A DNA stretch of 64,000 bases, taken from assembly GCF_028369105.1 (NCBI RefSeq), contig NZ_JAQNDO010000001.1:10014501-10078500 (forward strand), written 5' to 3'. The notes below the pieces were generated by a model. That model ran no database searches. It was not told the DNA's origin and worked only from the letters and a program-made list of their open reading frames with translations. Shown piece by piece: positions 3,543-50,580 of the stretch (position 1 is its first letter; the number at the start of each line of letters is the position of its first letter). Both the position numbers and the translations under genes were made by a program. This DNA comes from Polyangium mundeleinium (GTDB lineage Bacteria > Myxococcota_A > Polyangia > Polyangiales > Polyangiaceae).

Positions 3543-7913
<4,371 letters not shown>

Positions 7914-12795: not shown

Positions 12796-13251
12796 TCACG
12801 GGTCGCCGCGCGCCGCGAGCTCGCGCCTGCGTTTGTCGATCCAGGCGCGCGCCTCCGCCTCCGTGCCGAAGGTGACGAGCGGAGGGGCCTTGGGTTGAAG
12901 CAGCGACGTGGCCTTGTCGACGAGCGTCACGGCCATGCGTTGCCGGAAGGTCCCATTGAAAAGCACCATGCCCTTGTTTTCGGGCCGCACCGGCGTCTTG
13001 GCCGCGCGCGTGCGCGCCTCCGGGGTGATGGCGCCGAGGCGCCCGAGATCGACGAGCCAGAACACGTGCGCGAGCCCGCTCGTGTCGCAGAGATGCGCGA
13101 ATGCATCAAAGAAGGCGGCGATGTCTTCCTCGGCGAGATCTCCCGCGACGCGGATGAAGACGATGCCCGCGCTCTCGCACCGATACGTGTGCCCTCCGGT
13201 GTGGTGCCAGCCGTCGGAGCCGGAATCGTTCGTCGAGAGGTCCGGGCGCAT
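12796..13251 (-). CDS. Small STAS/SpoIIAA-like protein
   Basis: The start is the ATG at 13251 (151 residues); longer frames exist but read across the next promoter. The chain runs GHTYRCESAGIVFIRVAGDLAEEDIAAFFDAF, then HVFWLVDLGRLGAITPEARTRAA, and ends in TFGTEAEARAWIDKRRRE. This is the beta-alpha order of SpoIIAA/STAS-like domains that myxobacteria carry as stand-alone proteins, in which the central strand VFWLVDLG precedes the alpha helix. It is soluble and probably a protein-interaction module in signalling. Neighbours are the hybrid kinase, convergent 37 bp downstream, and a lipoprotein gene divergent about 100 bp upstream. No obvious phospho-Ser/Thr site was identified. Confidence 0.6.
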   Translation of the reverse strand: MRPDLSTNDSGSDGWHHTGGHTYRCESAGIVFIRVAGDLAEEDIAAFFDAFAHLCDTSGLAHVFWLVDLGRLGAITPEARTRAAKTPVRPENKGMVLFNGTFRQRMAVTLVDKATSLLQPKAPPLVTFGTEAEARAWIDKRRRELAARGDP

Positions 13252-13355
13252 GAGCGTGGGGAAATAACACGGTCTTCCCGCGCCAGGGAAGGAATCGCCC
13301 GCGGCCGCAGTCCCCGGTTGACGCGAGCGTGTTTGGACGACTACCGTCCTCGGGC

Positions 13356-13832
13356 ATGCACCATTTGTCCTCCTGGCTCCTCGTGGCATCCCTCTTCGTC
13401 ACCGGGTGCGCGGCGAGCGCCGGCCCCGGCAAGACGGCGGATTCCGAGGGCGAGAACGACAAGGTCAAAGAATGCAACGCCGTCATCGAGGTGATCAACG
13501 GCGGCATGCAGAAGCTGAACAAGTCCCAGAACGAGACGAAGGATGCGCCTGGCACCGAGCAGCTCCGCGCGCTGGCCGACGTGATGGACAGCGTCGGCCG
13601 GGATATCGAGGCCGTGCCCGTGACGCAGCCCGAGCTCGTCCGGAAGGTGGCCGATTACCAGGACATGGTACGCACCACCGCAAAAGCCGCGCGAGACCTG
13701 GCGCGTGCCATCGAAGCGAAGGACGCCCGCGGGGCCAATGCGGCGACGTCCGCGCTCAGTACGGCCGTGAAGCGGGAGTCGCCGCTGGTCGACGACATCA
13801 ACGCCTACTGTCAATCCGGCACCGGAGGTTGA
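13356..13832 (+). CDS. Small helical lipoprotein
   Basis: The ATG at 13356 opens a canonical lipoprotein signal (MHHLSSWLLVASLFVTGC), which decides the start over the in-frame codon at 13329. The roughly 140-residue mature part is charged and predicted helical: KVKECNAVIEVINGGMQKLNKSQ, then ADVMDSVGRDIEAVPVT, MVRTTAKAARDLARAIEAKDA and ending NAYCQSGTGG. It has the look of small coiled, peptidoglycan- or envelope-associated lipoproteins common in myxobacteria. No enzyme motif is visible. Two Cys apart from the lipidated one (KECN and AYCQ) could form a disulfide. Confidence 0.75.
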   Translation: MHHLSSWLLVASLFVTGCAASAGPGKTADSEGENDKVKECNAVIEVINGGMQKLNKSQNETKDAPGTEQLRALADVMDSVGRDIEAVPVTQPELVRKVADYQDMVRTTAKAARDLARAIEAKDARGANAATSALSTAVKRESPLVDDINAYCQSGTGG

Positions 13833-13883
13833 TTCTCCACGCAACGTCGACAGTCGCGTAGGTACGTACTACCGTTTTCCGGC

Positions 13884-14540
13884 ATGCATACCGTCCGGTT
13901 CTACTTCGACGTCATCAGCCCCTACGTTTGGCTCGCATGGACGCAGGTGCCCGAGGTCGAGGCGCGCACGGGCGCGCGCTTCGACCTCCAGCCCGTGCTG
14001 TTCGCGGGGTTGCTTCAGGCAAACGGGAACAAGGGCCCCGCGGAAATCGCGTCGAAGCGCGTCCACCTGCTGCAGGACGTGGCGCGCTGGGCGATGACGT
14101 TGAAGCGTCCCTATGCAGGTCCGCCGGCGCATCCGTTCAATCCCCTGAAGGCGCAGCGCATGTGCGCGGCCCTCGACGATCCGGACGCGCGGCGCCGCCT
14201 CGCCGGCGCGTTGATCGTCGCGACCTGGGAAAACGGCCGCGACTTGATGAACGACGCCGAGCTCCGCGCCATCGCCGACGACGCGGGCCTCGACGGCGCT
14301 GCGCTCCTCGCCGCCACCGAGGATCCCGCGGTGAAGGAGCGACTCCGGAAGAACACCGAGCACGCGCTCGCCGAGGGCGTCTTCGGCGTGCCGACGTTCC
14401 TCGTCGACGACCAGATTTTTTGGGGCAATGACCGGCTCGGGTTTCTGGAGACGTACCTCGGCGGGGGTCTTCGTATCGACAAGTCCGAGCTTGCGGAGCG
14501 CCTCGCGCGGCCGCGTGCAGCGGACCGCAAGAACGTGTAG
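13884..14540 (+). CDS. 2-hydroxychromene-2-carboxylate isomerase family (DsbA-fold, kappa-GST-like)
   Basis: The 218-residue product begins VRFYFDVISPYVWLAW, matching the family hallmark 'FYFDxxSPYxxLA' in which Ser is the glutathione-activating residue. It continues with PVLFAGLLQANGNKGPAEIASKR and ends with ALAEGVFGVPTFLVDDQIFWGNDRLGFLE, the thioredoxin-fold GVFGVPTF cis-Pro loop and the FWGNDRL signature. Family members use glutathione to isomerise 2-hydroxychromene-2-carboxylate in naphthalene-type degradation, or act more broadly as kappa-class glutathione transferases. No aromatic-degradation genes are nearby, so a detoxification role is as likely. Cytoplasmic, and of normal family length. 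Confidence 0.9.
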   Translation: MHTVRFYFDVISPYVWLAWTQVPEVEARTGARFDLQPVLFAGLLQANGNKGPAEIASKRVHLLQDVARWAMTLKRPYAGPPAHPFNPLKAQRMCAALDDPDARRRLAGALIVATWENGRDLMNDAELRAIADDAGLDGAALLAATEDPAVKERLRKNTEHALAEGVFGVPTFLVDDQIFWGNDRLGFLETYLGGGLRIDKSELAERLARPRAADRKNV

Positions 14541-14543
14541 CGC

Positions 14544-15011
14544 TCACTTCACCAGGCCGAGGCGAAGAAGCAGGAGGAAGGCGCGCTCCATCCACGTGAG
14601 GTCGGGGGACACGTGAAGGGAACGTACGGTCACCCGGCCGTCCCTTGGGGGGTGACTCGCGAATGCATGGAGGGCAGGCTGGTCGGTGGTTCGTGTTCGA
14701 AACGTCACCTCACGTGGGTCCCAGTCGCTCGATTGAAGGGCCTGGACGAGGTCGGGCTGATCCGTCAGCAACGTGAATCGATAGGAATCCCAGAACATGT
14801 CCGCCCAGCGGCAATCGGTCAGTTCGGCCACGCGGATTCCCCGCCATTGCACGAACCAGCCCTCGTCGCGCCCGTAGTTTGCCGCCACGGCGCGCGCCCT
14901 CCGCCATCGGTCCGGCGGGTCTCGTGGGCTGTCCGCGTGCGACTTCCGGTAGGGATTCATGTCCGTCGAGCGCCTTTGGCTTGCTGCGGTTTCAATGTCT
15001 GCCCACGTCAC
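14544..15011 (-). CDS. Hypothetical protein
   Basis: Convergent with the isomerase gene, with only 3 bp between stops. The start is uncertain: the frame opens with GTG at 15011, but an ATG at 14960 (MNPYRKSHADSP) is at least as likely and gives 138 residues. The product contains WFVQWRGIRVAELTDCRWADMFWDSYRF, then two strands rich in TDQP, and a basic hydrophobic tail ERAFLLLLRLGLVK. No known domain is recognised. The WRGxRVAxLTDxxWxDMFWDSY pattern looks like a real conserved family rather than a chance frame. Soluble, with no signal peptide. Confidence 0.55.
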   Translation of the reverse strand: MTWADIETAASQRRSTDMNPYRKSHADSPRDPPDRWRRARAVAANYGRDEGWFVQWRGIRVAELTDCRWADMFWDSYRFTLLTDQPDLVQALQSSDWDPREVTFRTRTTDQPALHAFASHPPRDGRVTVRSLHVSPDLTWMERAFLLLLRLGLVK

Positions 15012-15092
15012 GCGCGACGGCCGCGTCGATGTGACGTGTCGGAGTCTGCTCCGAGCCCCGGAGGGACCGCAACCCGTTTCTCTGGGGCCCGG

Positions 15093-15992
15093 TCATTGCG
15101 GCGATGCGAAGAGGCGCTCGATCGCCGCGCGCCCTGAGCGATCGAGCCAAGCGTCGAACGTCAGGAGGCCGGGATGGAGCCGCCGCAAGGCATCGATGTC
15201 GGCATCGCCCGTCGCCACGCCCTGGTCGACGAGCTCGACCAGGCGGCGCAGGACGGGATTCGCCTCCAGGAACGCCGCGGGGAATCGCGCGTACGAAATG
15301 GATCGACCCGTCGCTCGGGAGATGCGCTCGGCGAGGCCGCGCCCGCTGATCCGATCGCCCGCGAGATCCAGCGTCCGGCCAACAAACCTCGCAGGCTCCA
15401 CGAACGCGCGGGCCACGAGCTTTCCGATGTCCTCGACCGCGATGAGCTGCATCGAGTCGTCGGGCCGCACGAAAAAGATGAGCTCGCCGCGCGAAAGCCC
15501 GAGGAAGGGCACGAGCAGGAACTCCATGAACGCCACCGGCCGCACGATCGTCGCCGGGATGCCGAGCGAGCGGATGTGCTCTTCGATCCGGTGCTTGCTC
15601 TCGAAATGGCCGACGCCGGTCCCGGCGCGGAGGCCACCGACCGACGTGTAGACGAGGTGCTTCACGCTGGCGGCGTACGCCGCGTCCGCGACGCTGATGC
15701 CGAGGCGCAGCTCGTCGTCGTCGGTGATGCCGTACTCGGGCTGGCCGGAGCTCGGCTGAATGCTGAAGACGCCGTAGGCGCCGCGCGCCGCGGCGTCGAG
15801 CGACGCCCGATCGCGGAGATCGCCCTGGACGAGCTCGACGCCCGCCTCCGCAAGCGCGCGCGCCTTCTCGCTCGCGGGCTCGCGCACCAGCGCGCGAACA
15901 CGGAAGCCCTCGTCGCGAAGGGCCCGCGCCGTCGAGCCCCCCTGCTGCCCCGTCGCCCCCAGCACCAGCACCGTCTCGTCCCGCTTGGTCAT
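15093..15992 (-). CDS. NmrA-like NAD(P)-binding protein
   Basis: The ATG at 15992 is preceded by AGGAGG at good spacing. The 299-residue product starts VLVLGATGQQGGSTARALRDEG, the Rossmann nucleotide-binding GATGxxG motif of the NmrA/atypical SDR family, followed by VRALVREP, VQGDLRD, AYGVFSIQ and KHLVYTSVGG. It lacks the YxxxK catalytic pair of true SDR dehydrogenases; instead HFESKHRIEEHIRSLGIPATIVRPV is typical of NmrA proteins, which sense NAD(P) redox state or reduce quinones. It is transcribed away from a TetR-type gene, with a perfect palindrome between them (16022-16036). That layout usually means the TetR protein represses this gene. The TetR copy here is broken, so the gene may be constitutively expressed. 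Confidence 0.85.
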   Translation of the reverse strand: MTKRDETVLVLGATGQQGGSTARALRDEGFRVRALVREPASEKARALAEAGVELVQGDLRDRASLDAAARGAYGVFSIQPSSGQPEYGITDDDELRLGISVADAAYAASVKHLVYTSVGGLRAGTGVGHFESKHRIEEHIRSLGIPATIVRPVAFMEFLLVPFLGLSRGELIFFVRPDDSMQLIAVEDIGKLVARAFVEPARFVGRTLDLAGDRISGRGLAERISRATGRSISYARFPAAFLEANPVLRRLVELVDQGVATGDADIDALRRLHPGLLTFDAWLDRSGRAAIERLFASPQ

Positions 15993-16021
15993 GGCAAGGA
16001 ACCCTCCTGGCACCCCCGAAA

Positions 16022-16036
16022 CGGAGGTATCCTCCG
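16022..16036. promoter_or_regulatory. Perfect palindrome, likely TetR operator
   Basis: cggagg-tat-cctccg is a perfect inverted repeat with a 3-bp centre, flanked by aaa on the left and gttt on the right so that dyad symmetry almost continues. It lies 30 bp upstream of the NmrA-like start and 12 bp upstream of the TetR GTG, where binding would block both promoters. Size and position fit a TetR-family operator. Binding by the neighbouring TetR protein is inferred. Confidence 0.65.
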
Positions 16037-16047
16037 GTTTGCTAGCT

Positions 16048-16552
16048 GTGAAGAGAGCGACGTCAAAGACGGCGGCGGCCGAAGCGCCGAAGGAGCTCCG
16101 CGCCGACGCGCAGCGGAACCGGGAGAGGCTGCTCGCGGTGGCGGACGAGGTGTTCTCCGAGCGCGGCGCCGACGCCTCCCTCGAGGACATCGCGAGGCGC
16201 GCGAAGGTCGGGATCGGCACGCTGTACCGGCACTTCGCGTCGCGCACGGCGCTGCTCGCCGCCGCTCGTGCTTCACGCGAGCATGTACCGCGGACTCGCG
16301 GCGTCGCTGGGCGTGGTCCTTCAGAACGGGACGAGCGGGTGCGTCGCGACGACGGCGGCGGGACGTGACCTGCTGTTGCGCGCGCAGGCGGAGGGCGAGA
16401 TCCGGCGGGACGTGGACTTCGAGGACGTGGTCTGCATGGCAGCGGCGATCTCGCTCGCGTCGCAAGGGGAAAGCGACACGCGCCGCATTCGGCGGCTCGT
16501 CGGGATGTTCGTCGACGGGCTCCGCGCGCCGGCAGGGCGCTCGGCTTCGTAA
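16048..16552 (+). pseudogene. TetR-family regulator, internal deletion plus frameshift
   Basis: The N-terminal half reads from a GTG at 16048: RADAQRNRERLLAVADEVF, then DASLEDIARRAKVGIGTLYRHFASRTALLAA, a complete TetR helix-turn-helix. At about 16262-16275 this frame turns into nonsense. The family's C-terminal ligand-binding half resumes in another frame with MYRGLAASLGVVLQ, LLLRAQAEGEIRRDVDFEDVV and RRLVGMFVDGLR, ending at 16552. Compared with intact relatives, which have about 40-45 residues between the helix-turn-helix and YRGLAAS, that segment is missing, so this is a deletion joined out of frame rather than a single-base slip. The product would bind DNA at most as an unregulated stub. 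It is divergent from its presumed target, the NmrA-like gene, with the operator-like palindrome still intact. Confidence 0.8.
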
Positions 16553-16572
16553 AACCCCGGCGACCTCGTCGC

Positions 16573-17526
16573 TCATCTCCCCACGTCGCGGCGCACCAGC
16601 GAGCGGCGCAAACCTTCCTGCAGGGTCGCGAACGTGCATACGTTCTCGAATCCGAGGTCATCGTCCACCAGCGTGCGCGCCGTCTCCGTGGAGATGCCGA
16701 CGACCATGCATTGCGCCCCCAGCAATTCGGCGGCGCGCACCGCGTCGCGCAGATACCGCGCCGCGTCCGCGTCGAGGACCGGCACGCCGGTCACGTCGAG
16801 GATGACCTTCTCCGCGCTCGCCTCCACGATCGACTGGAGCAGGACCTCGAGGATACGCGCGCCGCGTGCCGCGTCGATACGGCCGATCAGCGGCAGCGCG
16901 AGGATGCCCTTCCAGATCCTGAGCACGGGCGTGGACAGCGCGGCGATCGCCTCCTGCTGCTCCTCGCTGAAGCGAAGCTGCTCCGCGAGCTCCTCGGTCC
17001 GCATGGCAACGGCCGCCTCGAGCTGCTCCTTCTGCTGCCGCAGCTCCTCCTCCGAATGCTTGAGCTCGCCGATGTCGAAATGGAGCTGCACCACCTCGTG
17101 TACCTCCCCGCTCGCGCCCTTGACCGGGTGAAGCGTCGAGGCCACCCAGCGAACACTCCCATGTTCAACGGCGTCGTTCTCGCGCGGATCGTACCGGATG
17201 GTGGGCAACCGTGTTGCCTTTCCCTCCAGAAATGCCTGCTCGATGCGATGCATGAACCCCTGGGCGGCGACCTGGGGATCTTTCAGCAGCCTGTAATCGG
17301 CGGTTTGATCGAGATTCGTGTGCCAGAGCTGCTCCCAGCCAGAGTTTACCTCCTTGGTGCGGCTCTCGGGATCGTAGACCTGGACGCTGACGACGCCTCC
17401 GTCGAACAGGGCTTGGTAGCGCCGCGCTGGGATTTCCAGCTCGGCAACACGCCGTCGCAACGACGCGTTCTCGCGCGCGAGCTCCTCGATCACCTGCTCG
17501 GCGTCAACGGGTTGTCGGTGGTTCAT
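16573..17526 (-). CDS. PAS-STAS protein, RsbR-type stressosome/partner-switch component
   Basis: The start is the ATG at 17526 (317 residues). Order: an N-terminal coiled segment (VIEELARENASLRRRVAELE), a PAS/PAC domain about 35-150 (YQALFDGGVVSVQVYD ... HFDIGELKHSEEELR), a coiled linker about 155-190, and a STAS domain about 197-310. The STAS part carries both threonines that RsbR-type proteins have phosphorylated by RsbT: Thr246 in ILDVTGVPVLD and Thr285 in STETARTLV. In known systems such proteins build the stressosome and release a kinase when the sensor domain is triggered. No RsbS or RsbT homologue is in this window. It is divergent from a second STAS protein at 17979 whose STAS domain is closely similar, suggesting a duplicated output module with different sensors. 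Confidence 0.88.
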   Translation of the reverse strand: MNHRQPVDAEQVIEELARENASLRRRVAELEIPARRYQALFDGGVVSVQVYDPESRTKEVNSGWEQLWHTNLDQTADYRLLKDPQVAAQGFMHRIEQAFLEGKATRLPTIRYDPRENDAVEHGSVRWVASTLHPVKGASGEVHEVVQLHFDIGELKHSEEELRQQKEQLEAAVAMRTEELAEQLRFSEEQQEAIAALSTPVLRIWKGILALPLIGRIDAARGARILEVLLQSIVEASAEKVILDVTGVPVLDADAARYLRDAVRAAELLGAQCMVVGISTETARTLVDDDLGFENVCTFATLQEGLRRSLVRRDVGR

Positions 17527-17978
17527 TCTCGGGCATTCACGACGGCCTCGTGGCCGTGCCAGCATTGCCGGGAATACGATGCCAGCGGCGGGCGAGTTTT
17601 ATGTGCACCACCCGGGACAACGCAAGCGGAAAGAACCAGCCGCATGGCTCGTTAGCACCCAAACGCTCTGCCCATGATTGCGGCGCTCGTCGCGCGTAAG
17701 CCCGGCGCAGCGGGGACCGTCCTGCTCGAATTCACGATCGCGGCCCACATCATCCATCGATGGAATCGTCGGAGACGTTCCGAGCGCGCTCGAATACGAC
17801 AATCGCTTGACGCGTATTCGTAAAAGGGTGCTGTCGATGGCATTCGCTCCGCGTGCGCCAGAGTTCCGTCTTCGACGCCACAGCCTTTTTTCCGAAAGGA
17901 ACGTCGGAGCTCTTGTATCCGGCAGACGACCCGGGCACCATCACAAACGCGGGGACATCGACAGGAAGGGGGACTGCG
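17527..17978. promoter_or_regulatory. Divergent intergenic region between the two STAS genes
   Basis: These 452 bp lie between two divergent starts and hold no convincing gene. A 10-bp palindrome ccatcgatgg is at 17754-17763, and a TTGACG hexamer that could serve as a -35 element for the rightward gene is at 17807-17812, without a clear -10. A strong ribosome site (aggaaggggg) precedes the 17979 start. Confidence 0.4.
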
Positions 17979-18938
17979 ATGGATCGACGCTTGGTTATCG
18001 GTCTGGGCTTGGCCGCTGCGCTCGTGGTGTATCTGTTGCCTACGTTGTCGCCCGTGGTCGGGTGCGTACGGTCGGAGGTGTGGCCAGGAACGTTGATTGG
18101 CCTCCATGGGATCGCCGATTTCGTGATCGCATTCTCGTACGCGTGGATCCCCCTGAGCCTCCTCGAGTTGTGGCGCGCTCGGCGTGACATCCCCGTCAAC
18201 TGGACCCTCGTCTGCTTCGCGGCCTTCATCGTGCTGTGCGGTCTGGGGCATGCGCTCGATGTCCTCGTGGTCTGGAAGCCCCTCTACTGGCTGACGGGCG
18301 AGGTGAAGGCAGCCACGGCGCTCGTATCCATCGCGACGGCCGTGCTGCTGCGTTACCGGGTCCTGCCGCATCTGCTCACGATTCCGAGCCTCGACGAGAT
18401 CCACGCCGCGACGAAACGAGCCGAGCGGGAGGCCGCGGCGGCAAACGCTGCGAGCGCGGAGCTCGCGAAGGTCAACGCGGCCCTCCTGTCGCAAACCACG
18501 GAGCTCCAGGAGGCCATTCACCGAATCCGGTGTCAGGATGCCGCCATCCGGGAGCTCTCGACCCCGGTCCTGCCCCTGCACGATCGCGTCCTTTTGTCCC
18601 CGATCATCGGGACCCTCGACAGCCCACGCGCGTGCCAGCTCGCCGAGGACATGCTCTCTGCGGTGCGAGACCACCGCGCCGCCGTGGTCATCCTCGACCT
18701 CGCGGGCGTCGCCGTGATGGACGCGGCGGTCGCGGCAGCGCTCCTCCGGATCGTCGACGCCATTCGCCTGCTGGGAGCGGCCTGCGTGATCACCGGTATC
18801 CGCCCGGCGGTGGCGCAGACGATCGTGACGCTCGGGATCGACCTGTCCGCGGTCGCGACCCGCGCGGACGTCCGCGAGGGCCTGCAATACGCCATGAAGT
18901 TCGTCGATCGGCGTGCCACGGCGAGCGGGGCGGCTTGA
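17979..18938 (+). CDS. Membrane STAS protein with an ethylene-receptor-like N-terminal domain
   Basis: The ATG at 17979 with aggaaggggg upstream sets the start (319 residues). Four hydrophobic helices lie at about 5-27, 37-62, 73-97 and 105-127. Helices 2 and 3 match the copper/ethylene-binding pocket of plant and cyanobacterial ETR1: Asp47, Tyr54, Ile57, Pro58 and then Cys87 and His91. Their spacing is identical to ETR1 D25, Y32, I35, P36, C65 and H69, within ADFVIAFSYAWIPLSLLEL and FIVLCGLGHALD. A coiled coil (about 140-185) leads to a STAS domain (about 195-305). There the first RsbR threonine is replaced (Ala242 in LDLAGV) and the second is kept (Thr281 in AQTIVTLGID). The likely role is a membrane sensor feeding a STAS partner-switch. 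Ethylene-type domains normally front histidine kinases or cyclases; ethylene or copper binding is inferred from residues only. Confidence 0.87.
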   Translation: MDRRLVIGLGLAAALVVYLLPTLSPVVGCVRSEVWPGTLIGLHGIADFVIAFSYAWIPLSLLELWRARRDIPVNWTLVCFAAFIVLCGLGHALDVLVVWKPLYWLTGEVKAATALVSIATAVLLRYRVLPHLLTIPSLDEIHAATKRAEREAAAANAASAELAKVNAALLSQTTELQEAIHRIRCQDAAIRELSTPVLPLHDRVLLSPIIGTLDSPRACQLAEDMLSAVRDHRAAVVILDLAGVAVMDAAVAAALLRIVDAIRLLGAACVITGIRPAVAQTIVTLGIDLSAVATRADVREGLQYAMKFVDRRATASGAA

Positions 18939-19040
18939 TCGCGCCACGTATCGTCACGAGCGAACAAGGAACGGGAGCAGAGTCCGACTCGTTCACAAAA
19001 GGTCGCGCGCTTCCCCCCGCCCATGCCCTAGCATCGCGTC

Positions 19041-19661
19041 ATGCGTGGCCCCCACCTGGTCGCTCTTTCCCTCCTTCTCTCCGTGGCGGGGCTCTGCTGC
19101 GGCCCGAGCCGCGCCCGTTTCGCGCCGCCCGAAGGCGCGCCCGAGCCGCCGGAAGGCGCGGGCTGGTTCTGCGCGCATGCCATCACGCCGCATGACGTCT
19201 CGTGGTGCAAACGAAAGCGCGACGCGTGCGAAAAGTACCACAAGCGCATGATCCAGGCGAAGCGCGAGTTCCTCGAAGTGCCGGAGCGAGCCCCGCATTC
19301 CTCCCGCATGCGCCCTGAAACCGCCCCCGTCGCCGGCCCGGGAGGAGGCGACGACGAGCTGCCCGAATCCGAGGAGCCGCCGGTGCCGGAACCCCCTTCG
19401 CAGGAGCTGGAGGGCATCTGCGAGCTCGATCCCAGCGCATGCCCGAGCGTATCGCCGCGCAGCTCGGTCCCCACCTATTCGAACTGCGCCCCTCGGCCGA
19501 ACGCGTTCTGCACGGCCTACTACCACGAGTTCAATTTCTATCGCCGCGACAAGGAGAATGAATGGCGCCATTTCTGCGCGGAGACCCGGGAGGCGTGCGA
19601 GGCATGGCGCGAGGATTGGCACCTGCACCTGGTGAAACGTCCGTGCGAGGAGGTGCGCTGA
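19041..19661 (+). CDS. Secreted Cys-rich protein with duplicated Cys module
   Basis: The product begins with a signal peptide (MRGPHLVALSLLLSVAGLCC); the Cys pair is not a canonical lipobox, so ordinary secretion is as likely as lipidation. The mature part holds two copies of one module separated by a Pro/Glu-rich linker. The first reads GWFCAHA...WCKRKRDACEKYHKRM and the second AFCTAYY...WRHFCAETREACEAWREDW. Each has three Cys in C-x(n)-C-x5-6-C spacing next to a basic/aromatic helix. No function is known. The duplication and paired cysteines suggest a small disulfide-stabilised envelope protein. Confidence 0.65.
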   Translation: MRGPHLVALSLLLSVAGLCCGPSRARFAPPEGAPEPPEGAGWFCAHAITPHDVSWCKRKRDACEKYHKRMIQAKREFLEVPERAPHSSRMRPETAPVAGPGGGDDELPESEEPPVPEPPSQELEGICELDPSACPSVSPRSSVPTYSNCAPRPNAFCTAYYHEFNFYRRDKENEWRHFCAETREACEAWREDWHLHLVKRPCEEVR

Positions 19662-42860: not shown

Positions 42861-43949
42861 ATGAATTTCGAGGCGCTCGTCGAGAACATCAGCTGGGCGA
42901 GCGTCGATGGCGAGACGATGATGGACCGTCACGGCCGTGACGTCGCCGTCGTCGTCGCCAAAATGGCCTACAAAGTGAGCCGCGAGGGCGCGGCGAGGCT
43001 CGCGCTCGCGCCCGTACGACGCGTGGACGAGGGGGACGGCGGCGGGGGCGTGCGTTTTCCCGCGGATCTCGTGGCCGATGAGAAACCCGGCACGGACGTC
43101 GGGCTCGTGGGCCTCGCGTATCCGCCCCCGCGCACGGCCGGGACCAAGGGGCGCGTCTATGCGTGGCTCCAGGTCGGCACGCTGCGCAAGGTCGTCGTGG
43201 TGCACGGGCCGCGCGTGTACGTGAAGAACTGGCGCGGCGCCGTCGCGCCCTCGGATCCCGCGCCGTTCGTCGAGCCAGTCCCCCTCCGCTACGACAAATG
43301 CCACGGCGGCCACGACCACATCTCTGGCGCGTTCGAACCCGCGAACCCCATCGGGATGGGTTTTTCCAGCCAGCCCACCCGCCTCCTCGGCGAGCCCGCG
43401 CCGCCGCTCGAACCGGCGTCCCTCGAGGAAGGCGGCGCCCCGTCGCACGCCTCATATGGCGCCTTCGCGCCGATCCCGGCGCACTGGGAGCCGCGGCGCT
43501 CGCGCATCGGCACGCATGACGCGGCGTGGGCGAAGGGCCGCGCGCCCGTGCGGCCGCGCGATTTTGATCCGATGCACCACGCCTGGTCGGTCCCGGGCCT
43601 GCACAGCGGCACGCCGCTCCTCGGCGACGAGCCGGTCGAGGTCGGCGGCGTCTTGCCGGACGGCGTCTGGCGCTTCCGTTTGCCCCGGTACGCCGTGCAG
43701 TTCGGCAGCCAGATCGACGGGCAAAAGGTGGCGTACGAGACCCACCTCGACGGGTTTCTGATCGATACCGAGACCCGCGCCGTGGAGCTCACGTGGCGGG
43801 CGTCGATCGTGCTGCCACGGAAATGGGAGCGGCTCGAACGGATCTACGTCCTCGGGGTGGGCACGCTCCCGGAGGACGTGATCCGCGACCCGAGCCGGAG
43901 CGTAGGGGCGGGACGGGCCGCGGATCCGGCGCACGCGAGGAGTGTGTAG
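42861..43949 (+). CDS. DUF2169 protein, T6SS accessory (adaptor/chaperone)
   Basis: The 362-residue protein begins DVAVVVAKMAYKVS and later has VPLRYDKCHGGHD, then NPIGMGF, and DGFLIDTETRAVELTWRA. These are the signatures of DUF2169, found almost only next to VgrG or PAAR-like genes and thought to help load effectors onto the spike. It lacks a signal peptide. It is followed after 3 bp by vgrG1, so the two are co-translated. This island encodes two further DUF2169 proteins (53179 and 58055), probably each devoted to a different cargo. Confidence 0.85.
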   Translation: MNFEALVENISWASVDGETMMDRHGRDVAVVVAKMAYKVSREGAARLALAPVRRVDEGDGGGGVRFPADLVADEKPGTDVGLVGLAYPPPRTAGTKGRVYAWLQVGTLRKVVVVHGPRVYVKNWRGAVAPSDPAPFVEPVPLRYDKCHGGHDHISGAFEPANPIGMGFSSQPTRLLGEPAPPLEPASLEEGGAPSHASYGAFAPIPAHWEPRRSRIGTHDAAWAKGRAPVRPRDFDPMHHAWSVPGLHSGTPLLGDEPVEVGGVLPDGVWRFRLPRYAVQFGSQIDGQKVAYETHLDGFLIDTETRAVELTWRASIVLPRKWERLERIYVLGVGTLPEDVIRDPSRSVGAGRAADPAHARSV

Positions 43950-43952
43950 GCC

Positions 43953-46166
43953 ATGAGCAAGAAAGCGTTGCGGATCGAAGTCTTCTTGAGCCTCGGCGAC
44001 GCCTCGTGGCCGGCTTTGCGGCTGCGCGTCGAGGAGGGGCTGAGCGAGCTCGGCGGGGCCTGGGTCGAGGTCGCCGTGGGCTCGGATCTCGACGTCGAGG
44101 AGCTGCTCGAAGAGCCGGCCACGGTCGTGATCTTGTGGGACGGGCAGGAAAAACGCCGGTTCTCGATGCAGCTCGCCCGCGGCCGCTTCCTCGACGAGAA
44201 GGACGGCCACCTGCACTACGAGCTCGAGCTGCGGCCCTCGCTCTGGTTCCTCGGCCTCGACAAGAACACGCGCAAGTGGCGCGACCAGCCCGCCGAGCCG
44301 ATCGTCTCGAAGGTCCTCGACGAGGGCTCGGTCCCCCACGCGTGGCGCACCACGCGCGCCTCGGCGTCGCAGCCGTACTGCGTGCAGTATCGCGAGACGA
44401 ACCTCGATTTCGTGTCGCGTATGCTGGAGTTCGAGGGTTTTTATTACAGCTTCGATCCCGACGGCACGATGATCATCGGCGACACCTCCTCGGCCTCGGA
44501 GGAGGTCTTGGGCGGCGCGGAGTTCGAGCTCATCGAAGCGGCGGGCGCGCTCTCGCACGGCGACTTCGGCGTCACCTCGTTCGAGCGCGGCGCGGTCGTG
44601 GGATCCGGCAAGGCCACGGTCAACGACCACAACTGGAAGACGCCGAAGCTCTCGCTCCTCGCCTCGGCCACGGGCGCGAAGGACACGCACCTCGAGGTCT
44701 ACGATTACCCCGTCGGGTATCGCGACGTGGGCACGGGCGAGATGCTGGCGAAGCTCCGGGTCGAGGCGCTCTGCGCGGAGAAGCGCTTCGTGGAGGGCAC
44801 GAGCACGGTCTTCGACTTCGCGCCGGCGCGCATCTTCTCGTTCACGCACGAGGAGGGCGCGAGCTTCAGCGGCCGCTACCTGCTCGTGTCCGTGGAGCAC
44901 GAGTACCGCGAAGAGGCGGGCGTCGCGCACTACGAGAACCGCTTCCGGGCCATCCCCGCGGACGTCCCGTTCCGCCCCGCGGTGAAGACGGAGCGCCCCG
45001 AGATCGAGGGCAACCACACGGTGATGGTGCGCGGCCCCGCGGGCGAGGAGATCCACACGGACGCGTACGGCCGCGCGAAGGTGCAGTTCCACTGGGATCG
45101 CGAGGCCAAGGGCACGGACGAGGACTCGCGCTGGATCCGGATGGCGCAGGAGATCTCGACCTCGATCGCGCTCGCGCGTGTCGGCTGGGAGATCAGCGTC
45201 GGCTACATCGACGGCGACCCGACGCGACCCGTGGGCTTCGCGCGGCAGATCAACGGGCAGATGGTCCCGATGTACAGCCAGCCCGCGTTCAAGAACCGGA
45301 TGACGATCCGCACGGAGACGTACCCGGGCAAGGCCGGGTTCAACGAGCTGCGCCTGGAGGACTCGGCCGGCTCGATGCACATGGACTGGCACGCGCAGAA
45401 GGACTTCAAGACCCTCGTCCAGCACGACCGGACCGAGACGATCGGCAACAACCAGACGGTGCTCATCGAGAGCAACTCGACCCGCACGGTCGAGAAAAAC
45501 CAGACGATCGACATCGGCGGCGATCAGACGCGGACCGTGGGCCGGCACGTCGTGCACAAGGTCAACGTGGACCGGAACCACACGATCGGTGGGGAAGAGA
45601 CCATCGACGTCACGCTCGGCGTCGAGACCTCCGTGATGGAGAACGACGTCGAGACGGTGGGCGGGACGCGCTTCACGCGCTCGGGCAACGACGAGACCGG
45701 CTCGATCGATCGCTCGGTCCAGAAGACGCTGACGCGGATCGTGGGCGGCTCGTCGATCTCGATGGCGGGCGGCTCGGTGGCCCACGAGGGCGGCGAGATG
45801 CTCTTCGAGTACGCCGGCGGGTCGAAGATCACGATCGGCCTGGAGGAGAGCGTCAAGCAAGCGGTGGCCGAGAACCTCGACACGTTCGTGAGCGGGTTCG
45901 ACCTGCGCAAGTCGAAGGGCGACATGAGCGTGTCGGCCAAGCAGACGACGGTGAACGTGCAGAGCTCGGCGTTTTTCCGGTCGGCGGAGCGCATGGAGCT
46001 CCGGAGCCGCGCGATCGAGCTCGTCTCGTCGGCCTCGATCGCGCTCCGCGCGGGCGCGCTCTCGATCGAGATGACGCCCGGCAACGTGACCATCACCGGT
46101 CCGCTCAAGCAGGAGAGCGAGACCAAGATCACCCTGCGCGGCAACCCCGAGAAGCTGACGCCCTGA
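43953..46166 (+). CDS. vgrG: T6SS spike protein VgrG (first copy)
   Basis: A 737-residue VgrG. The gp27-like half shows SQPYCVQYRETNLDFVSRML and EGFYYSF, the hallmark of the family. The gp5-like OB domain has GEEIHTDAYGRAKVQFHWD and PTRPVGFARQING. A needle of repeated short strands follows from about residue 490: DRTETIGNNQTVLIE, KNQTIDIGGDQTRTVG, NHTIGGEETIDVTLGVE. The chain ends shortly after the needle, so no fused effector domain is visible. It is the first of three adjacent vgrG genes and follows a DUF2169 gene by 3 bp. The VgrG trimer should sit at the tip of a T6SS tube assembled by proteins encoded elsewhere. Confidence 0.95.
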   Translation: MSKKALRIEVFLSLGDASWPALRLRVEEGLSELGGAWVEVAVGSDLDVEELLEEPATVVILWDGQEKRRFSMQLARGRFLDEKDGHLHYELELRPSLWFLGLDKNTRKWRDQPAEPIVSKVLDEGSVPHAWRTTRASASQPYCVQYRETNLDFVSRMLEFEGFYYSFDPDGTMIIGDTSSASEEVLGGAEFELIEAAGALSHGDFGVTSFERGAVVGSGKATVNDHNWKTPKLSLLASATGAKDTHLEVYDYPVGYRDVGTGEMLAKLRVEALCAEKRFVEGTSTVFDFAPARIFSFTHEEGASFSGRYLLVSVEHEYREEAGVAHYENRFRAIPADVPFRPAVKTERPEIEGNHTVMVRGPAGEEIHTDAYGRAKVQFHWDREAKGTDEDSRWIRMAQEISTSIALARVGWEISVGYIDGDPTRPVGFARQINGQMVPMYSQPAFKNRMTIRTETYPGKAGFNELRLEDSAGSMHMDWHAQKDFKTLVQHDRTETIGNNQTVLIESNSTRTVEKNQTIDIGGDQTRTVGRHVVHKVNVDRNHTIGGEETIDVTLGVETSVMENDVETVGGTRFTRSGNDETGSIDRSVQKTLTRIVGGSSISMAGGSVAHEGGEMLFEYAGGSKITIGLEESVKQAVAENLDTFVSGFDLRKSKGDMSVSAKQTTVNVQSSAFFRSAERMELRSRAIELVSSASIALRAGALSIEMTPGNVTITGPLKQESETKITLRGNPEKLTP

Positions 46167-46179
46167 AGGAGAACGCGCG

Positions 46180-48360
46180 ATGGAACTTGCATTCGCCGAG
46201 CTCGTCGTCACGGGGACCGAGGTGCGCCGCGTGCTCTCGCTCCGCGGGCAGGAGGCGGTCTCGACCCTGTTCCGGTACGAGGTCGAGGTCGAAGTGGAGC
46301 TGCCGCTGCCCGACGTCGACGTGGTGATCGGCGCGGAAGCGACGTTGACCCTGCGGGATCAGGCGCACAAGGAGCGCGTGGTCACGGGCGTGGTGGCCGA
46401 GGCGAGCGCACGGGCGCTCGACAACGAGCGCGGGCGAGCGACGATCGTCCTCCGGCCGATGATGTGGCGACAGTCGCTCGGCCGTGACTGCTACGCGTCG
46501 CAGGATGTCCGCGTGCAGGACGTCGTCGACGACGTGCTCGCCGACTACACGGGGAAATACCGCTGGGCGCTCACGCGCAGCTACCCGCGTTACCCCTACC
46601 GCGCGCAGTACCGCGAGGACGACTGGACCTACGTGAGCCGCCTCCTCGAGGAGGAGGGGATTTACTACTGGTTCGATCACGAGGCGGGCTCGATCACCGT
46701 CTTCTCGGACAACTCCACGGCCGCGCCGGAGATGCCGGGCGGCGCGCTCCTGCCGTGGGTGCGCGAGAGCGCGCTGCAGCCGAAGCAAGACGCGGTGACG
46801 CAGCTCGGATCGATGAGCTCCGCGTCGACGGGTCGATTCGAGGCGAAGTCGTACGACCTCAAACGGCCACTCGTGCCGATCAAGGCGAAGGCCGGCGCGG
46901 GCCGACACGAGGTGTACGACGCGCCGGGCGGCGGCACGGGGATGGAGGCGATCCTCGAGGTGCGGGTGCGCGATCAGCGCGACGCGGCCGTGGCGGCGCG
47001 GGCGGGCGTGATGGGGTTGTCGACGAGCGTGCGCCCCTTCCCCGGCGTCACGCTCGAGATCGACGGGCACCCGGTCGCCAAGATGAACGGGCGTTACCTC
47101 GTGACGCGCGTCGAGGTCGACGGGGACGAGCATCAGCCGTGCGACACGCGCTTCTGGGCGATCCGGGCCGAGGTCGCGTTCCGGCCGCAGCGGGTGACGC
47201 CAGAGGCGAAGCAGGCGGGGCTCCAGCTCGGGCAGGTGATCGGGCCCGACGGGCAGGAGGTGCATCCGGACGAGCTCGCGCGGGTGCGGACGATCCTGCA
47301 CTGGGACCGGCTCGGCCCGCGCAACGAGAAGGGCGGCACGTGGATGCGCGTGGCGCAGCGCGCGGCCCCTGGATCGATGCTCTTCCCGCGCATGGGCTGG
47401 AACGTCGCGACCTTCAACGAGGAGGGCGGCGTCGACGCGCCGAGCGTGATCTGGCGCATCCACGACGGCGAGCGCCTGCCCGAGTACAAGCTGCCCGGGA
47501 ACATGACGCGCGTCGTGTGGAAGACGGCGACGGTGCCCGCGGACGGGACGGCAAACGAGATCTACTTCGAGGACCGGATGGCCGCCGAGGAGATGTTCAT
47601 CAACGCCTCGCGCGACATGAACTACATCGTCCTCGATTCGCGCTGGGAGAGTGTCCAGAACGACTCCACGCGCACGGTCGCGGTGAACCACGACCTGACG
47701 ATCCACGCTTCGCAAGAGGAGCGCGTGATCGGCGATCAGCGGATCACGATCGGCGGCAACGAGACGCTGACGGTCTCGGGTCTGCGCATCAAGACGGTCT
47801 CGGCCAACGAGACGGAGACGGTGGGCGGCTCGCGGACGATCCGCGTGGGCGACGCGCACCGCACGTCCGTGAAGGGAGATCGCACGCTCTCCGTCGGCGG
47901 ATCGCTCATCGAGATCACGCCGAACAACATCAACCGGACGTCGCGCGACATGGTGACGGTCGTCGGCGGCAGCGTCGTCAAGGTCGCGAGCGAGGACGTC
48001 TCCGAGGTCGCGCGCAAGGACTCGGTGCAGGTCATCGGCGGCTCGAAGATCGAGGTGGCGAAGAAGGACCACTCTCTCGACGTGAACACGGCGTGGACCG
48101 AGGAGGTCGGGGGCTCGATCGTCTGCGTGTCGAACGAGAAGTACCTCGACAACGCCGACACGACGGCGAGGTGGAACGTCACGTCGGCGGTCGTCGGCAG
48201 CGCGCCCGTCGTGCACATCGAGGCGGTCGAGACCATCCGCTTCACGTGCGGATCGAGCGTGCTCACGATGACCACGGACGCGATCACGATCACGACCCCG
48301 AGCCTCGATTTGTCCGGCGCGACGTTCGACGCCGACAGCGGGATGATCGAGCACAACTGA
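46180..48360 (+). CDS. vgrG: T6SS spike protein VgrG (second copy)
   Basis: AAGGAGA precedes the ATG. The 726 residues carry the standard features: YRAQYREDDWTYVSRLLEEE, EGIYYWFDHE, then GQEVHPDELARVRTILHWD in the OB domain. A long needle of strands follows (VNHDLTIHASQEERVIGDQR, IGGNETLTVSG, ANETETVGGSRTIRVGD). The OB sequence diverges from copy one (HPDELARV instead of HTDAYGRA), so the copies are old duplicates rather than recent ones. No extra C-terminal domain. It lies 13 bp after vgrG1 and 10 bp before vgrG3. Confidence 0.95.
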   Translation: MELAFAELVVTGTEVRRVLSLRGQEAVSTLFRYEVEVEVELPLPDVDVVIGAEATLTLRDQAHKERVVTGVVAEASARALDNERGRATIVLRPMMWRQSLGRDCYASQDVRVQDVVDDVLADYTGKYRWALTRSYPRYPYRAQYREDDWTYVSRLLEEEGIYYWFDHEAGSITVFSDNSTAAPEMPGGALLPWVRESALQPKQDAVTQLGSMSSASTGRFEAKSYDLKRPLVPIKAKAGAGRHEVYDAPGGGTGMEAILEVRVRDQRDAAVAARAGVMGLSTSVRPFPGVTLEIDGHPVAKMNGRYLVTRVEVDGDEHQPCDTRFWAIRAEVAFRPQRVTPEAKQAGLQLGQVIGPDGQEVHPDELARVRTILHWDRLGPRNEKGGTWMRVAQRAAPGSMLFPRMGWNVATFNEEGGVDAPSVIWRIHDGERLPEYKLPGNMTRVVWKTATVPADGTANEIYFEDRMAAEEMFINASRDMNYIVLDSRWESVQNDSTRTVAVNHDLTIHASQEERVIGDQRITIGGNETLTVSGLRIKTVSANETETVGGSRTIRVGDAHRTSVKGDRTLSVGGSLIEITPNNINRTSRDMVTVVGGSVVKVASEDVSEVARKDSVQVIGGSKIEVAKKDHSLDVNTAWTEEVGGSIVCVSNEKYLDNADTTARWNVTSAVVGSAPVVHIEAVETIRFTCGSSVLTMTTDAITITTPSLDLSGATFDADSGMIEHN

Positions 48361-48370
48361 GGAGGACGCC

Positions 48371-48592
48371 GTGGCAACCGAGGATCCGCTTCGTTACTTC
48401 CTCTCGCTCGGGGGCACGACCTACCCCGTCAAGACCATCGCGGGCGAGGAGGCGCTCTCGCGGACGTACCGCTTCGAGATCACGCTCCAGGTCGAGCCCA
48501 CCGATCCGCTGGATCCGGACGCGTTGATCTTCACGGACGCCCGCTCACGCTCACGCGCGCCGCCGACGAACGGCGGATCCAGGGCGTGGTGA
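48371..48592 (+). pseudogene. N-terminal fragment of the third VgrG, cut off by a one-base frameshift
   Basis: A GTG at 48371 with GAGGAGG upstream starts the expected VgrG head (YFLSLGGTTYPVKTIAGEEA, RTYRFEITLQVEPTDPLDPD). After FTDA the frame goes wrong at ccc (48540-48542) and stops at 48590-48592. If one C is added, the reading passes straight into PLTLTRAADERRIQGVVTQIKR of the following frame. The combined length would then be 736 residues, matching the two sister VgrGs (737 and 726). Confidence 0.8.
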
Positions 48593-50580
48593 CCCAGATC
48601 AAGCGCGCCGCGACGCGCAAGGGCAACGCGGGCACGGGCAAGGTGACGCTCGTGCTCGAGCCGCGCCTCGCGACCACGAGGCACCGCGTCGACATCCGGA
48701 TCTTCCGCGACAAATCCGCGCCCGAGATCGTGGCCGAGGTGATCGGCGCGCACGGCGTGACCGTGGAGCCGCGGCTCGTGGGGTCGTACGTGAAGCGCCC
48801 GTACTGCGTGCAGATGCGCGAGTCGGACTTCGATTTCGCGGCGCGGCTGCTCGAGGACGAGGGGATCTTCTACGTGGTCGACGACGAGGGCCGCATGGTC
48901 CTCGGCGACTTCACGAGCGCGTACGTCGAGGGAGCGGGGACGCTCGCGTTCCACCACGACGCGGGGATGCACGAGAACCGCGACGCGGTCTTCGAGGTCG
49001 GCTGGGCGGGCCGCGCGACGCCGGGCAAGGTCTCGCTGCGCGACTTCAACCCGGAGCGACCGCGCCTCGACATGGACGTCTCGGCCAAGGGCCCGACCGC
49101 GTGGGGGCCCGAATGGTACGACTATCCGGGCGAGTACGAGCTGCCCGCGCAGGGCCAGGCCAAGGCGAACCTCCGGGCCGCGGCGCTCGCCTGCGCCAAA
49201 CGCCGCCTCGCAGGCCGATCGACGGCGGGGCGCATGGCGACGGGCACGATCTTCTCGCTCATCGATGCGCCCTCGGGGGTCACGGACGGCGAGTACGTGC
49301 TCACGAAGATCGCGCACGCGTGGGATCGGACCGCGTCTTCGTTCTCGGTCGCGTTCGAGGCGCTGCCTGCGGACATGGTGTATCGCCCGCTCTGCGAGAC
49401 GTACGTGCCGACCTTGCCGAACCCGCTCACGGGCTTCGTGACGGGCCCCGCGGGCGCAGACATCCACACGGATCCGTGGGGCCGCGTGAAGGTGCATTTC
49501 CCGTGGGATCGGCTCCAGCCGAAGGACGACACCTGCTCGCACTGGATCCCGGTCTTGCAGGACAACACGGGCCGCTCGTCGGCGATGCCGCGCACCGGCT
49601 GGGAGGTGCTCTGCCAGTTCCTGGAGGGTGATCCGGACCGGCCCGTCATCCTCGGCCGTGTCTTCAACGCGGCGGATCCCTTCCTCGAGGAGCTGCCGAT
49701 CCGCAAGATGCGCACGTCGCTCCACTCGCTGACCTCGCCGCGCTCGACGGACAAACCCTCGGGCTACAACATGATCCGCTTCGACGATCTGGCGGGCGCG
49801 CAGGAGATCCACGTCCACGCGCAGAAGGATCAGAACATCGTCGTCGCGAACAACCAGGACGAGAAGGTCGGCAACGTCGAGCAGCGGACCGTCAAGGGCA
49901 ACGAGGCGATCCGGATCGGCGCGAACGAGACCATCAACGTCACGGACGACAGCGCGTCGAAGGTCGACGGCAACCAGACCGTGAACATCGGCGGCAACCG
50001 CACCGCGACCATCTCGGCCTCGCAGACGGACACGGTCCACAAGGACCACACGATCACGATCGGCGGCTCACACCTGCGCGACACGCACACGGACGACAAC
50101 GTCGCGGTCGAGCAGAACATGACGGAGCTCATCGCCGGGCACGTCTTCGAGCAGTCCGGCCACACCAACGCGGTCACGGGCGGCACGACGTCGACGCTCG
50201 TCGTGGGCGGCTCGATCGTCGAGATCGGCAAGCTCAACAAGGCCGAGAACACGGAGAAGCTCCGCAACGAGTCCGTGGGTGGCCTCGCCTTCAGCAAGGC
50301 CGACGAGAAGCACACGTCGCGCGCCGAGGAGTCGCGCACGACGACCGTGACGGGCAACTACGCCGTCGTGTCGTTGAAGGAGCTGCTCCTCGCGGGCCTC
50401 GAACAGCTCCGCATCGAGTCGACGAGCACGACCCTCAACGCGCCCGAGATCACGCTCAAGGTCGGCGAGACCGAGATTCACCTGAAGAACGGCAGGATCG
50501 ACATGAAGGCGCCGAGCGAGATCACGATCGACACGCAGCAGGCGAACAACCTCGCGTCGACGACGTCGTCGCAGAACTGA
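48586..50580 (+). CDS. vgrG: T6SS spike protein VgrG (third copy), N-terminus lost to a frameshift
   Basis: The surviving 664-residue frame can start only at an internal GTG (48586) inside the gp27-like domain, without a real ribosome site. It holds the rest of a VgrG: RPYCVQMRESDFDFAARLLE, EGIFYVV, GADIHTDPWGRVKVHFPWD, PDRPVILGRVFNAADPF. A long needle follows (NETINVTDDSASKVDGNQTV, NIGGNRTATISASQTDTV). No fused effector is seen. If the frameshift at 48540-48542 is real, the trimer-forming head is missing and this copy is dead. If it is an assembly error the gene runs 48371-50580. It precedes the unknown and PAAR-like genes and probably delivered that cargo. Confidence 0.85.
   Translation: MVTQIKRAATRKGNAGTGKVTLVLEPRLATTRHRVDIRIFRDKSAPEIVAEVIGAHGVTVEPRLVGSYVKRPYCVQMRESDFDFAARLLEDEGIFYVVDDEGRMVLGDFTSAYVEGAGTLAFHHDAGMHENRDAVFEVGWAGRATPGKVSLRDFNPERPRLDMDVSAKGPTAWGPEWYDYPGEYELPAQGQAKANLRAAALACAKRRLAGRSTAGRMATGTIFSLIDAPSGVTDGEYVLTKIAHAWDRTASSFSVAFEALPADMVYRPLCETYVPTLPNPLTGFVTGPAGADIHTDPWGRVKVHFPWDRLQPKDDTCSHWIPVLQDNTGRSSAMPRTGWEVLCQFLEGDPDRPVILGRVFNAADPFLEELPIRKMRTSLHSLTSPRSTDKPSGYNMIRFDDLAGAQEIHVHAQKDQNIVVANNQDEKVGNVEQRTVKGNEAIRIGANETINVTDDSASKVDGNQTVNIGGNRTATISASQTDTVHKDHTITIGGSHLRDTHTDDNVAVEQNMTELIAGHVFEQSGHTNAVTGGTTSTLVVGGSIVEIGKLNKAENTEKLRNESVGGLAFSKADEKHTSRAEESRTTTVTGNYAVVSLKELLLAGLEQLRIESTSTTLNAPEITLKVGETEIHLKNGRIDMKAPSEITIDTQQANNLASTTSSQN

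Follow-up and report, generated by a model that had tools for sequence, protein, structure and literature searches.

An ETR1-type sensor domain joined to an RsbR-type STAS domain in Polyangium mundeleinium, a candidate membrane-embedded stressosome input

A single gene with ETR1_N and STAS domains

The window, the 64,000-nucleotide stretch of Polyangium mundeleinium DNA analysed here (69% G+C, from a genome of 13.25 Mb), contains at 17979..18938 on the forward strand one open frame that starts with ATG and encodes 319 amino acids plus a stop, as established by ORF and translation checks. A Pfam profile search found ETR1_N and STAS domains together in this single frame: ETR1_N (PF25487; 100.2 bits, 8.2e-29; cut-off 27 bits) covers residues 39-134 (18093..18380, +) and profile positions 2-96 of 97, and STAS (PF01740; 55.2 bits, 6.9e-15; cut-off 22.6 bits) covers residues 197-290 (18567..18848, +). 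The initial annotation, made from the sequence alone, had proposed an ethylene-receptor sensor on a STAS output and had allowed that a profile search might prefer another four-helix family; the search preferred ETR1_N, and the two further families listed for the protein both scored below their own cut-offs. No HisKA/HATPase, PAS, GAF or Sulfate_transp domain was detected by Pfam in the frame. We regard the ETR1_N-STAS architecture of the 319-residue protein as close to certain.

Directly upstream lies the purine-rich stretch AGGAAGGGGG (17963..17972, +), which by its sequence is a possible ribosome-binding site. A simple coding score accepts the codon use of the gene, which resembles that of other genes, and the third-position G+C of its sensor (0.825), linker (0.851) and STAS part (0.882) compares with 0.845-0.91 in six other genes of the window. 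The divergent neighbour at 16573..17526 (-), part of the same locus, encodes a PAS-STAS (RsbR-like) protein.

A divergent sensor half that keeps the ETR1 pocket

Seven residues of the predicted sensor, D47, Y54, I57, P58, I84, C87 and H91, all carry their ETR1 number plus 22 (the ETR1 numbers Y32, I35 and P36 for Y54, I57 and P58 are those of the initial annotation, and Ile84 is what we take to be ETR1 Ile62). The annotation's observation that D47, Y54, I57, P58, C87 and H91 stand at the spacing of the plant receptor is therefore confirmed for every residue. By alignment, Cys87 (codon 18237..18239, +) and His91 (codon 18249..18251, +) correspond to the Cu(I) ligands Cys65 and His69 of ETR1. 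At each pocket site, the letter of the fusion is also the most frequent one across 83 aligned ETR1_N domains: D in 70, Y in 75, I in 73, P in 59, I in 74, C in 75, H in 78 and K (K110 in the fusion) in 62, with R in 13. Relatives thus mostly keep the Cys/His pair, whose absence from close homologues the annotation had named as evidence against its reading. According to the available parts of PMC6682694 and PMC11819568, binding in AtETR1 needs seven residues; C65, D25, H69 and K91 are named there, and the copper site of ETR1 is given in the accessible text of PMC12643061 as Asp25, Cys65 and His69. The AzoEtr1 counterparts are D35, C75, H79 and K98 (PMC11819568, as far as its available text goes), with the same Lys spacing, K110 being H91+19 in the fusion and K98 being H79+19 in AzoEtr1. 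Since both the residues and their spacing match ETR1 and AzoEtr1, the pocket is whole.

The surrounding domain has diverged. The PHGHC motif that precedes the first ETR helix in 12 of 15 aligned relatives is absent from the fusion, which has VVGC with a three-residue insert in its place, Cys29 aligning with the invariant Cys. In a careful tree, its ETR1_N domain forms a long branch (end branch 1.4 against a median of 0.26), and the sensor half matched no chain in a search of PDB sequences. With this divergence and the missing PHGHC, ethylene binding may have been lost; at the same time, the retention of the pocket residues despite the long branch suggests selection on the pocket.

An AlphaFold model, built from an alignment of three sequences (mean pLDDT 68.2, pTM 0.39) and too weak for pocket geometry, has helices at residues 3-23, 37-66, 73-98 and 107-132, then a long helix between sensor and output at residues 138-193 (18390..18557, +) and the STAS fold. 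The first is an additional N-terminal hydrophobic helix (17985..18047, +), recognized by hydropathy and modelled with low confidence. The annotation had described four N-terminal membrane helices and had suggested comparing a predicted structure with ETR1 models: four N-terminal helices are indeed modelled, at the low confidence given above, but only two of them (5-23 and 71-89) pass a hydropathy scan at a threshold of 1.7, and the overlay on the pocket is beyond what the model can bear. Four membrane helices are hence supported by the model, not proven, and the membrane location of the protein is a prediction from homology and sequence features.

From the conserved pocket, we consider Cu(I) binding by the predicted sensor likely, and ethylene as the signal of the protein to fall slightly short of an even chance. 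The sensor might instead bind Cu(I) or sense copper level, redox state, other alkenes or solvents, while still feeding a stressosome. Such a non-ethylene signal would sit well with a fast-evolving domain that has lost PHGHC and yet keeps the copper-site residues C87, H91 and D47; we nevertheless judge it rather unlikely, because the residues that serve ethylene binding outside the copper site (Y54, I57, P58 and I84) are kept too, and because P58, found in just 59 of the 83 relatives, is not retained automatically.

An RsbR-type output half

Compared with PDB sequences, the STAS half is closest to the RsbR of stressosomes (1.1e-27, gap-free over residues 183-312), followed by RsbS and then YtvA. 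Foldseek with the predicted model gave the same picture, with the Listeria innocua stressosome 7b0u first (E 7.4e-10) and RsbS and YtvA after it; the whole chains of 7b0u and the model fail to superpose (rmsd 23, TM 0.35-0.40), the STAS domain being the match that counts. The best NCBIfam match of this half is YtvA, at 78.8 bits far below the cut-off of 250. The RsbR-type STAS output proposed in the annotation is borne out by these matches together with the PF01740 score above cut-off.

At the two RsbR phosphosites, the PDB alignment places Ser215 (18621..18623, +) opposite T175 of Listeria RsbR and T171 of B. subtilis, and Ala249 (18723..18725, +) opposite T209 of Listeria RsbR and T205 of B. 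subtilis; the Ala at the second site sets the fusion apart from these RsbR proteins. Ser58 of SpoIIAA presumably aligns with RsbR T209, so Ala249, occupying the place of the SpoIIAA/RsbV serine, argues against a simple anti-sigma antagonist of the SpoIIAA/RsbV type. Listeria T175 is described in the accessible part of PMC6614362 as phosphorylated already without stress and as aiding the phosphorylation of RsbS by RsbT, while the available text of PMC3944199 has B. subtilis T205 used under extreme stress to damp the signal and signalling able to continue without RsbR phosphates at these sites. On this scheme, the fusion with its Ser215 and Ala249 could be primed, yet not damped at the second site. 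In the 97 STAS domains extracted from this genome, S/T occupies both phosphosites in 20, and 27 have neither S/T nor D/E at either site. In 24 of the 97, the first site is D/E; the sites are widely lost or replaced, and RsbR paralogues of fixed state may set a stressosome threshold.

Four contact residues of Listeria RsbR have been mutated (Q217, E220, T254 and R264, in the available part of PMC6614362). The fusion keeps T254 as T294 and has R257, D260 and Y304 at the places of Q217, E220 and R264, where the core RsbR of the same genome has K, K and Y.

Stressosome genes and other STAS proteins of the genome

The genome holds 98 STAS places, 97 of which were extracted as 85 proteins of 1000 residues or fewer and 12 larger ones. 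Among the 85, 58 match PAS_4 and one, the fusion, matches ETR1_N; it is also the single ETR1_N gene of the genome. A hydropathy scan of the region before STAS in the 97 proteins flagged six: the fusion, a SulP transporter and four proteins of 1547-1792 residues, which have one to four segments each (the best at 2.0) and include two kinase fusions. The Sulfate_transp-STAS combination of SulP type is found in another protein of the genome (L161). The fusion is the sole RsbR-type protein of ordinary size with hydrophobic segments among these 97. The twelve large proteins measure 1414-1792 residues (e.g., L155:4965-9605, L180:4926-10142 and L212:378-5354), and the three that were scanned share a protein kinase-AAA_16-GAF-STAS arrangement; such fusions may connect a Hanks-type kinase to the stressosome.

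On the reverse strand, some 400 kb from the fusion, lies a five-gene rsbR-rsbS-rsbT-rsbX-like operon (G000:C1:10432612-10435859; L108:4613-7860), encoding a PAS-STAS RsbR, an RsbS (8.8e-24 against solved RsbS), an RsbT-like HATPase, a SpoIIE-type phosphatase in the place of RsbX and a second HATPase. The RsbT-like protein had no match in the PDB at E 0.001, so it is named by its domain and gene order alone. The operon resembles the RSTX modules described in the available text of PMC9237108. Core partners for an RsbR-type protein are thereby present in this cell, as the stressosome-like wiring suggested in the annotation would call for, and together with the 98 STAS places they make a stressosome output plausible. 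On these comparisons, we consider the stressosome the probable output of the fusion protein.

The STAS half could also work outside a stressosome, acting by itself at the membrane, be it as a tether, as a decoy for RsbT or as a partner of some other protein. The rarity of membrane-linked STAS proteins invites this thought, given that below 1000 residues just the fusion and the SulP transporter, out of 97 proteins, show above-threshold hydrophobic segments ahead of STAS, as do the contacts R257, D260 and Y304, which differ from those of Listeria. We hold this to be unlikely in view of the gap-free match to the RsbR of solved stressosomes, the rsbRST-type genes in the same genome and the Listeria stressosome, which the accessible part of PMC6614362 describes as tethered to the membrane through Prli42.

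The domain combination is rare among the genomes examined

A contig scan with residues 1-144 recovered a single relative: a histidine kinase of a Hydrocarboniphaga MAG (near genomes possibly lay outside its scope). ETR1_N profile searches covered a sample of 377 genomes of the phylum of P. mundeleinium (25 with a match, 24 over the cut-off), 183 of its order (26 with a match) and 317 of its class (37 with a match), three sets that overlap, as well as a sample of 398 genomes of the phylum of the MAG (29 with a match, 28 over the cut-off) and 385 from the class to which one member of that sample belongs (27 with a match). In the order of the MAG (Nevskiales in the NCBI taxonomy), 54 of 85 genomes have relatives of the sensor half. 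ETR1_N domains are common in Cyanobacteria.

Outputs were read at 132 loci, 131 of which hold ETR1_N and amount to 129 genes, the MAG gene having been fetched three times; one gene read (L138) is below the family cut-off. A STAS domain in frame with ETR1_N occurs in 1 of the 129, the fusion itself, a count that leaves out 47 further ETR1_N places and in which 36 of the 131 frames run off the fetched locus, so that a STAS farther down would be missed. Within this scope, the annotation's view of the wiring as an unfamiliar one is upheld. Most of the other genes show kinase motifs and one shows GGDEF, as recognized by regular expression or by eye, and eight frames stop within 60 residues after the domain. 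Four ETR1_N proteins from the set of 385 genomes (L291, L294, L288 and L309) carry just 6-18 residues beyond ETR1_N, with no output domain in frame.

A search of viral contigs with the canonical ETR1_N alignment gave no match, and among 168 plasmid records with a match, none covered 80% of the fusion protein. No description of an ETR1_N-STAS fusion was found in the titles and abstract starts examined from the open-licence literature on ethylene receptor, STAS, stressosome and myxobacteria. Both halves belong to known families; it is their joining that is new among the genomes and literature examined, where it occurs in one genome.

A probable accessory gene in a variable locus

At 1e-20, 63-90 places per genome match the fusion protein in six genomes of the genus, including its own. 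The five others gave no full-length match among the matches listed; those listed outside its own genome are at most 50% identical and start at residue 111 or later, and therefore cover STAS and linker, not the pocket. An ETR1_N family search of these five found one domain, in a kinase of G292, and none in the other four.

In G466, which is 93% identical where it matches, the window is colinear over 13001-15078 and the match resumes at 18995; the 3.9 kb between (15079-18994), with NmrA, TetR, PAS-STAS and fusion genes, is absent. G467 has the order DsbA, PAS-STAS, VOC, NmrA and lacks both the fusion and the small gene at 19041. G367 and G369 retain the VOC-NmrA pair, and the contig of G369 also carries a PAS-STAS ortholog, about 25 kb away. 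From these comparisons, the fusion sits where genes are gained and lost. Within the window, 15985-16552 (+) holds a TetR-type regulator that is seemingly split, with TetR_N in one frame (15985-16368) and a TetR-like C-terminal part, recognized by eye, in another (about 16283-16552), either a pseudogene or a sequence error.

The sensor half groups with genes of its own phylum (26 rows, support 99/94) in the careful tree of about 100 columns, and its highest identity, 53-54%, is to a kinase domain from the order of the MAG. An origin of the sensor in the Hydrocarboniphaga MAG order is not shown by this tree and is not rejected by an AU test (p 0.345). The STAS half resembles RsbR and has no close partner, its best identity being 49-50%. 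Derivation of this half from the adjacent PAS-STAS gene is ruled out, at 37% identity, rank 81 of 96 and a place outside the nearest tree rows. The best explanation is an accessory gene of this species, which arose when an ETR1_N sensor was fused to an RsbR STAS output.

The same observations raise the prospect of a young, perhaps functionless fusion, one among the many RsbR genes that have been reshuffled in this genome of about 100 STAS places. The variability of the locus, seen in the gap of G466 and in the row of DsbA, PAS-STAS and VOC without the fusion in G467, the want of a full-length match among those listed in the five relatives and the seemingly split TetR-type gene nearby all fit such a history. 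We consider it improbable, since the frame is intact, is preceded by a stretch resembling a ribosome-binding site and has the codon use of other genes, and since the pocket residues are kept despite the long branch. An assembly chimera of two genes, to which occurrence in one examined genome alone might point, has a negligible chance of being correct, as the gene is a single open frame inside a 13.2-Mb contig, its flanks are colinear with those of a relative and neither half is more than 54% identical to any other sequence found.

A proposed membrane-embedded RsbR paralogue

We favour an RsbR paralogue embedded in the membrane, with a Cu(I)-binding sensor that would modulate the stressosome, and assign this reading as a whole a probability of about 0.5. 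In the proposed mechanism, Cys87 and His91 would bind Cu(I) within three ETR1-type helices and the extra N-terminal helix, and Asp47 and Lys110 would form the coupling pair. The packing of the helices in a dimer would change in response either to copper itself or to a copper-bound ligand, be it ethylene or a small alkene like it, and this change would run along the 55-residue helix to the RsbR-type STAS domain. The latter would be part of a stressosome, alongside RsbS and further RsbR paralogues, and would shift the hold on the RsbT-like switch kinase. Here we infer four things: copper and ligand binding, the dimer, the docking to the stressosome and the effect on RsbT.

One point against the mechanism is that the stressosome, a 60-mer, is cytoplasmic and may not accommodate many copies of a membrane sensor. 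Further points against it are the long-branch ETR1_N, the absent PHGHC, Ala249, the partly kept contact residues and the failure to find an ortholog. In its favour, exchanges of the sensor on RsbR are known, with globin, LOV and PAS domains in this place: the sensor of Vibrio RsbR is a heme globin (in the accessible part of PMC9237108) and that of YtvA a blue-light LOV domain (in the available text of PMC3944199). The fusion has the same order of N-terminal sensor, helix and RsbR-type STAS as RsbRA of B. subtilis, Listeria RsbR and the globin RsbR of Vibrio. Whereas the RsbR sensors in the literature are globin-like or LOV and those in this genome mostly PAS, its own is an ETR1_N predicted to lie in the membrane. 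Like YtvA (LOV-STAS), it would place a signal-binding domain on an RsbR-type STAS, the sensor being ETR1_N instead of LOV. In Listeria, by the available account in PMC6614362, RsbR and the stressosome are tied to the membrane by a separate mini-protein, Prli42; in the fusion, the sensor itself would be in the membrane.

On the sensor side, the closest known systems are SynEtr1 and AzoEtr1, which combine ETR1_N with PAS, GAF or cyanobacteriochrome parts and a histidine kinase. The fusion shares their membrane domain, ethylene-binding residues and Asp/Lys pair (PMC6682694 and PMC11819568, in their accessible parts), but differs in its STAS output without kinase, PAS or GAF, in its extra N-terminal helix and in lacking PHGHC.

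The membrane-embedded paralogue could, in a stronger form, be a true Cu(I)-dependent ethylene receptor that docks a stressosome at the membrane, with ethylene or other alkenes setting the release of the RsbT-like kinase. We advance this form tentatively, the odds being somewhat against it. To our knowledge, there is no ethylene receptor without a kinase or cyclase output and no RsbR with a membrane sensor of its own, so the protein would, if this held, be the first of either kind. An ETR1 sensor on an RsbR output would give a gas-switchable stressosome input and would show the ETR1 module driving outputs beyond kinases or cyclases. The signals of stressosomes are hard to define, and a sensor with a known cofactor, a binding assay and loss-of-function residues (C87 and D47) would help. 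If ethylene binds, environmental ethylene would be linked to stress signalling in this bacterium; if it does not, the protein tests how far the ETR1 fold drifts while holding copper.

Other genes of the window

The gene at 12796-13251 (-), about 5 kb away from the fusion, encodes a SpoIIAA-like protein (PF11964, 27.2 bits against a cut-off of 25). A 1456-residue fusion of protein kinase, TPR, sigma-54 activator and Fis HTH is encoded at 3543-7913 (-). At 42861-50580 (+), three VgrG-like spike genes stand in a row (43953, 46180 and 48586) beside a DUF2169 gene, a group suggestive of a type VI secretion spike/effector cluster.
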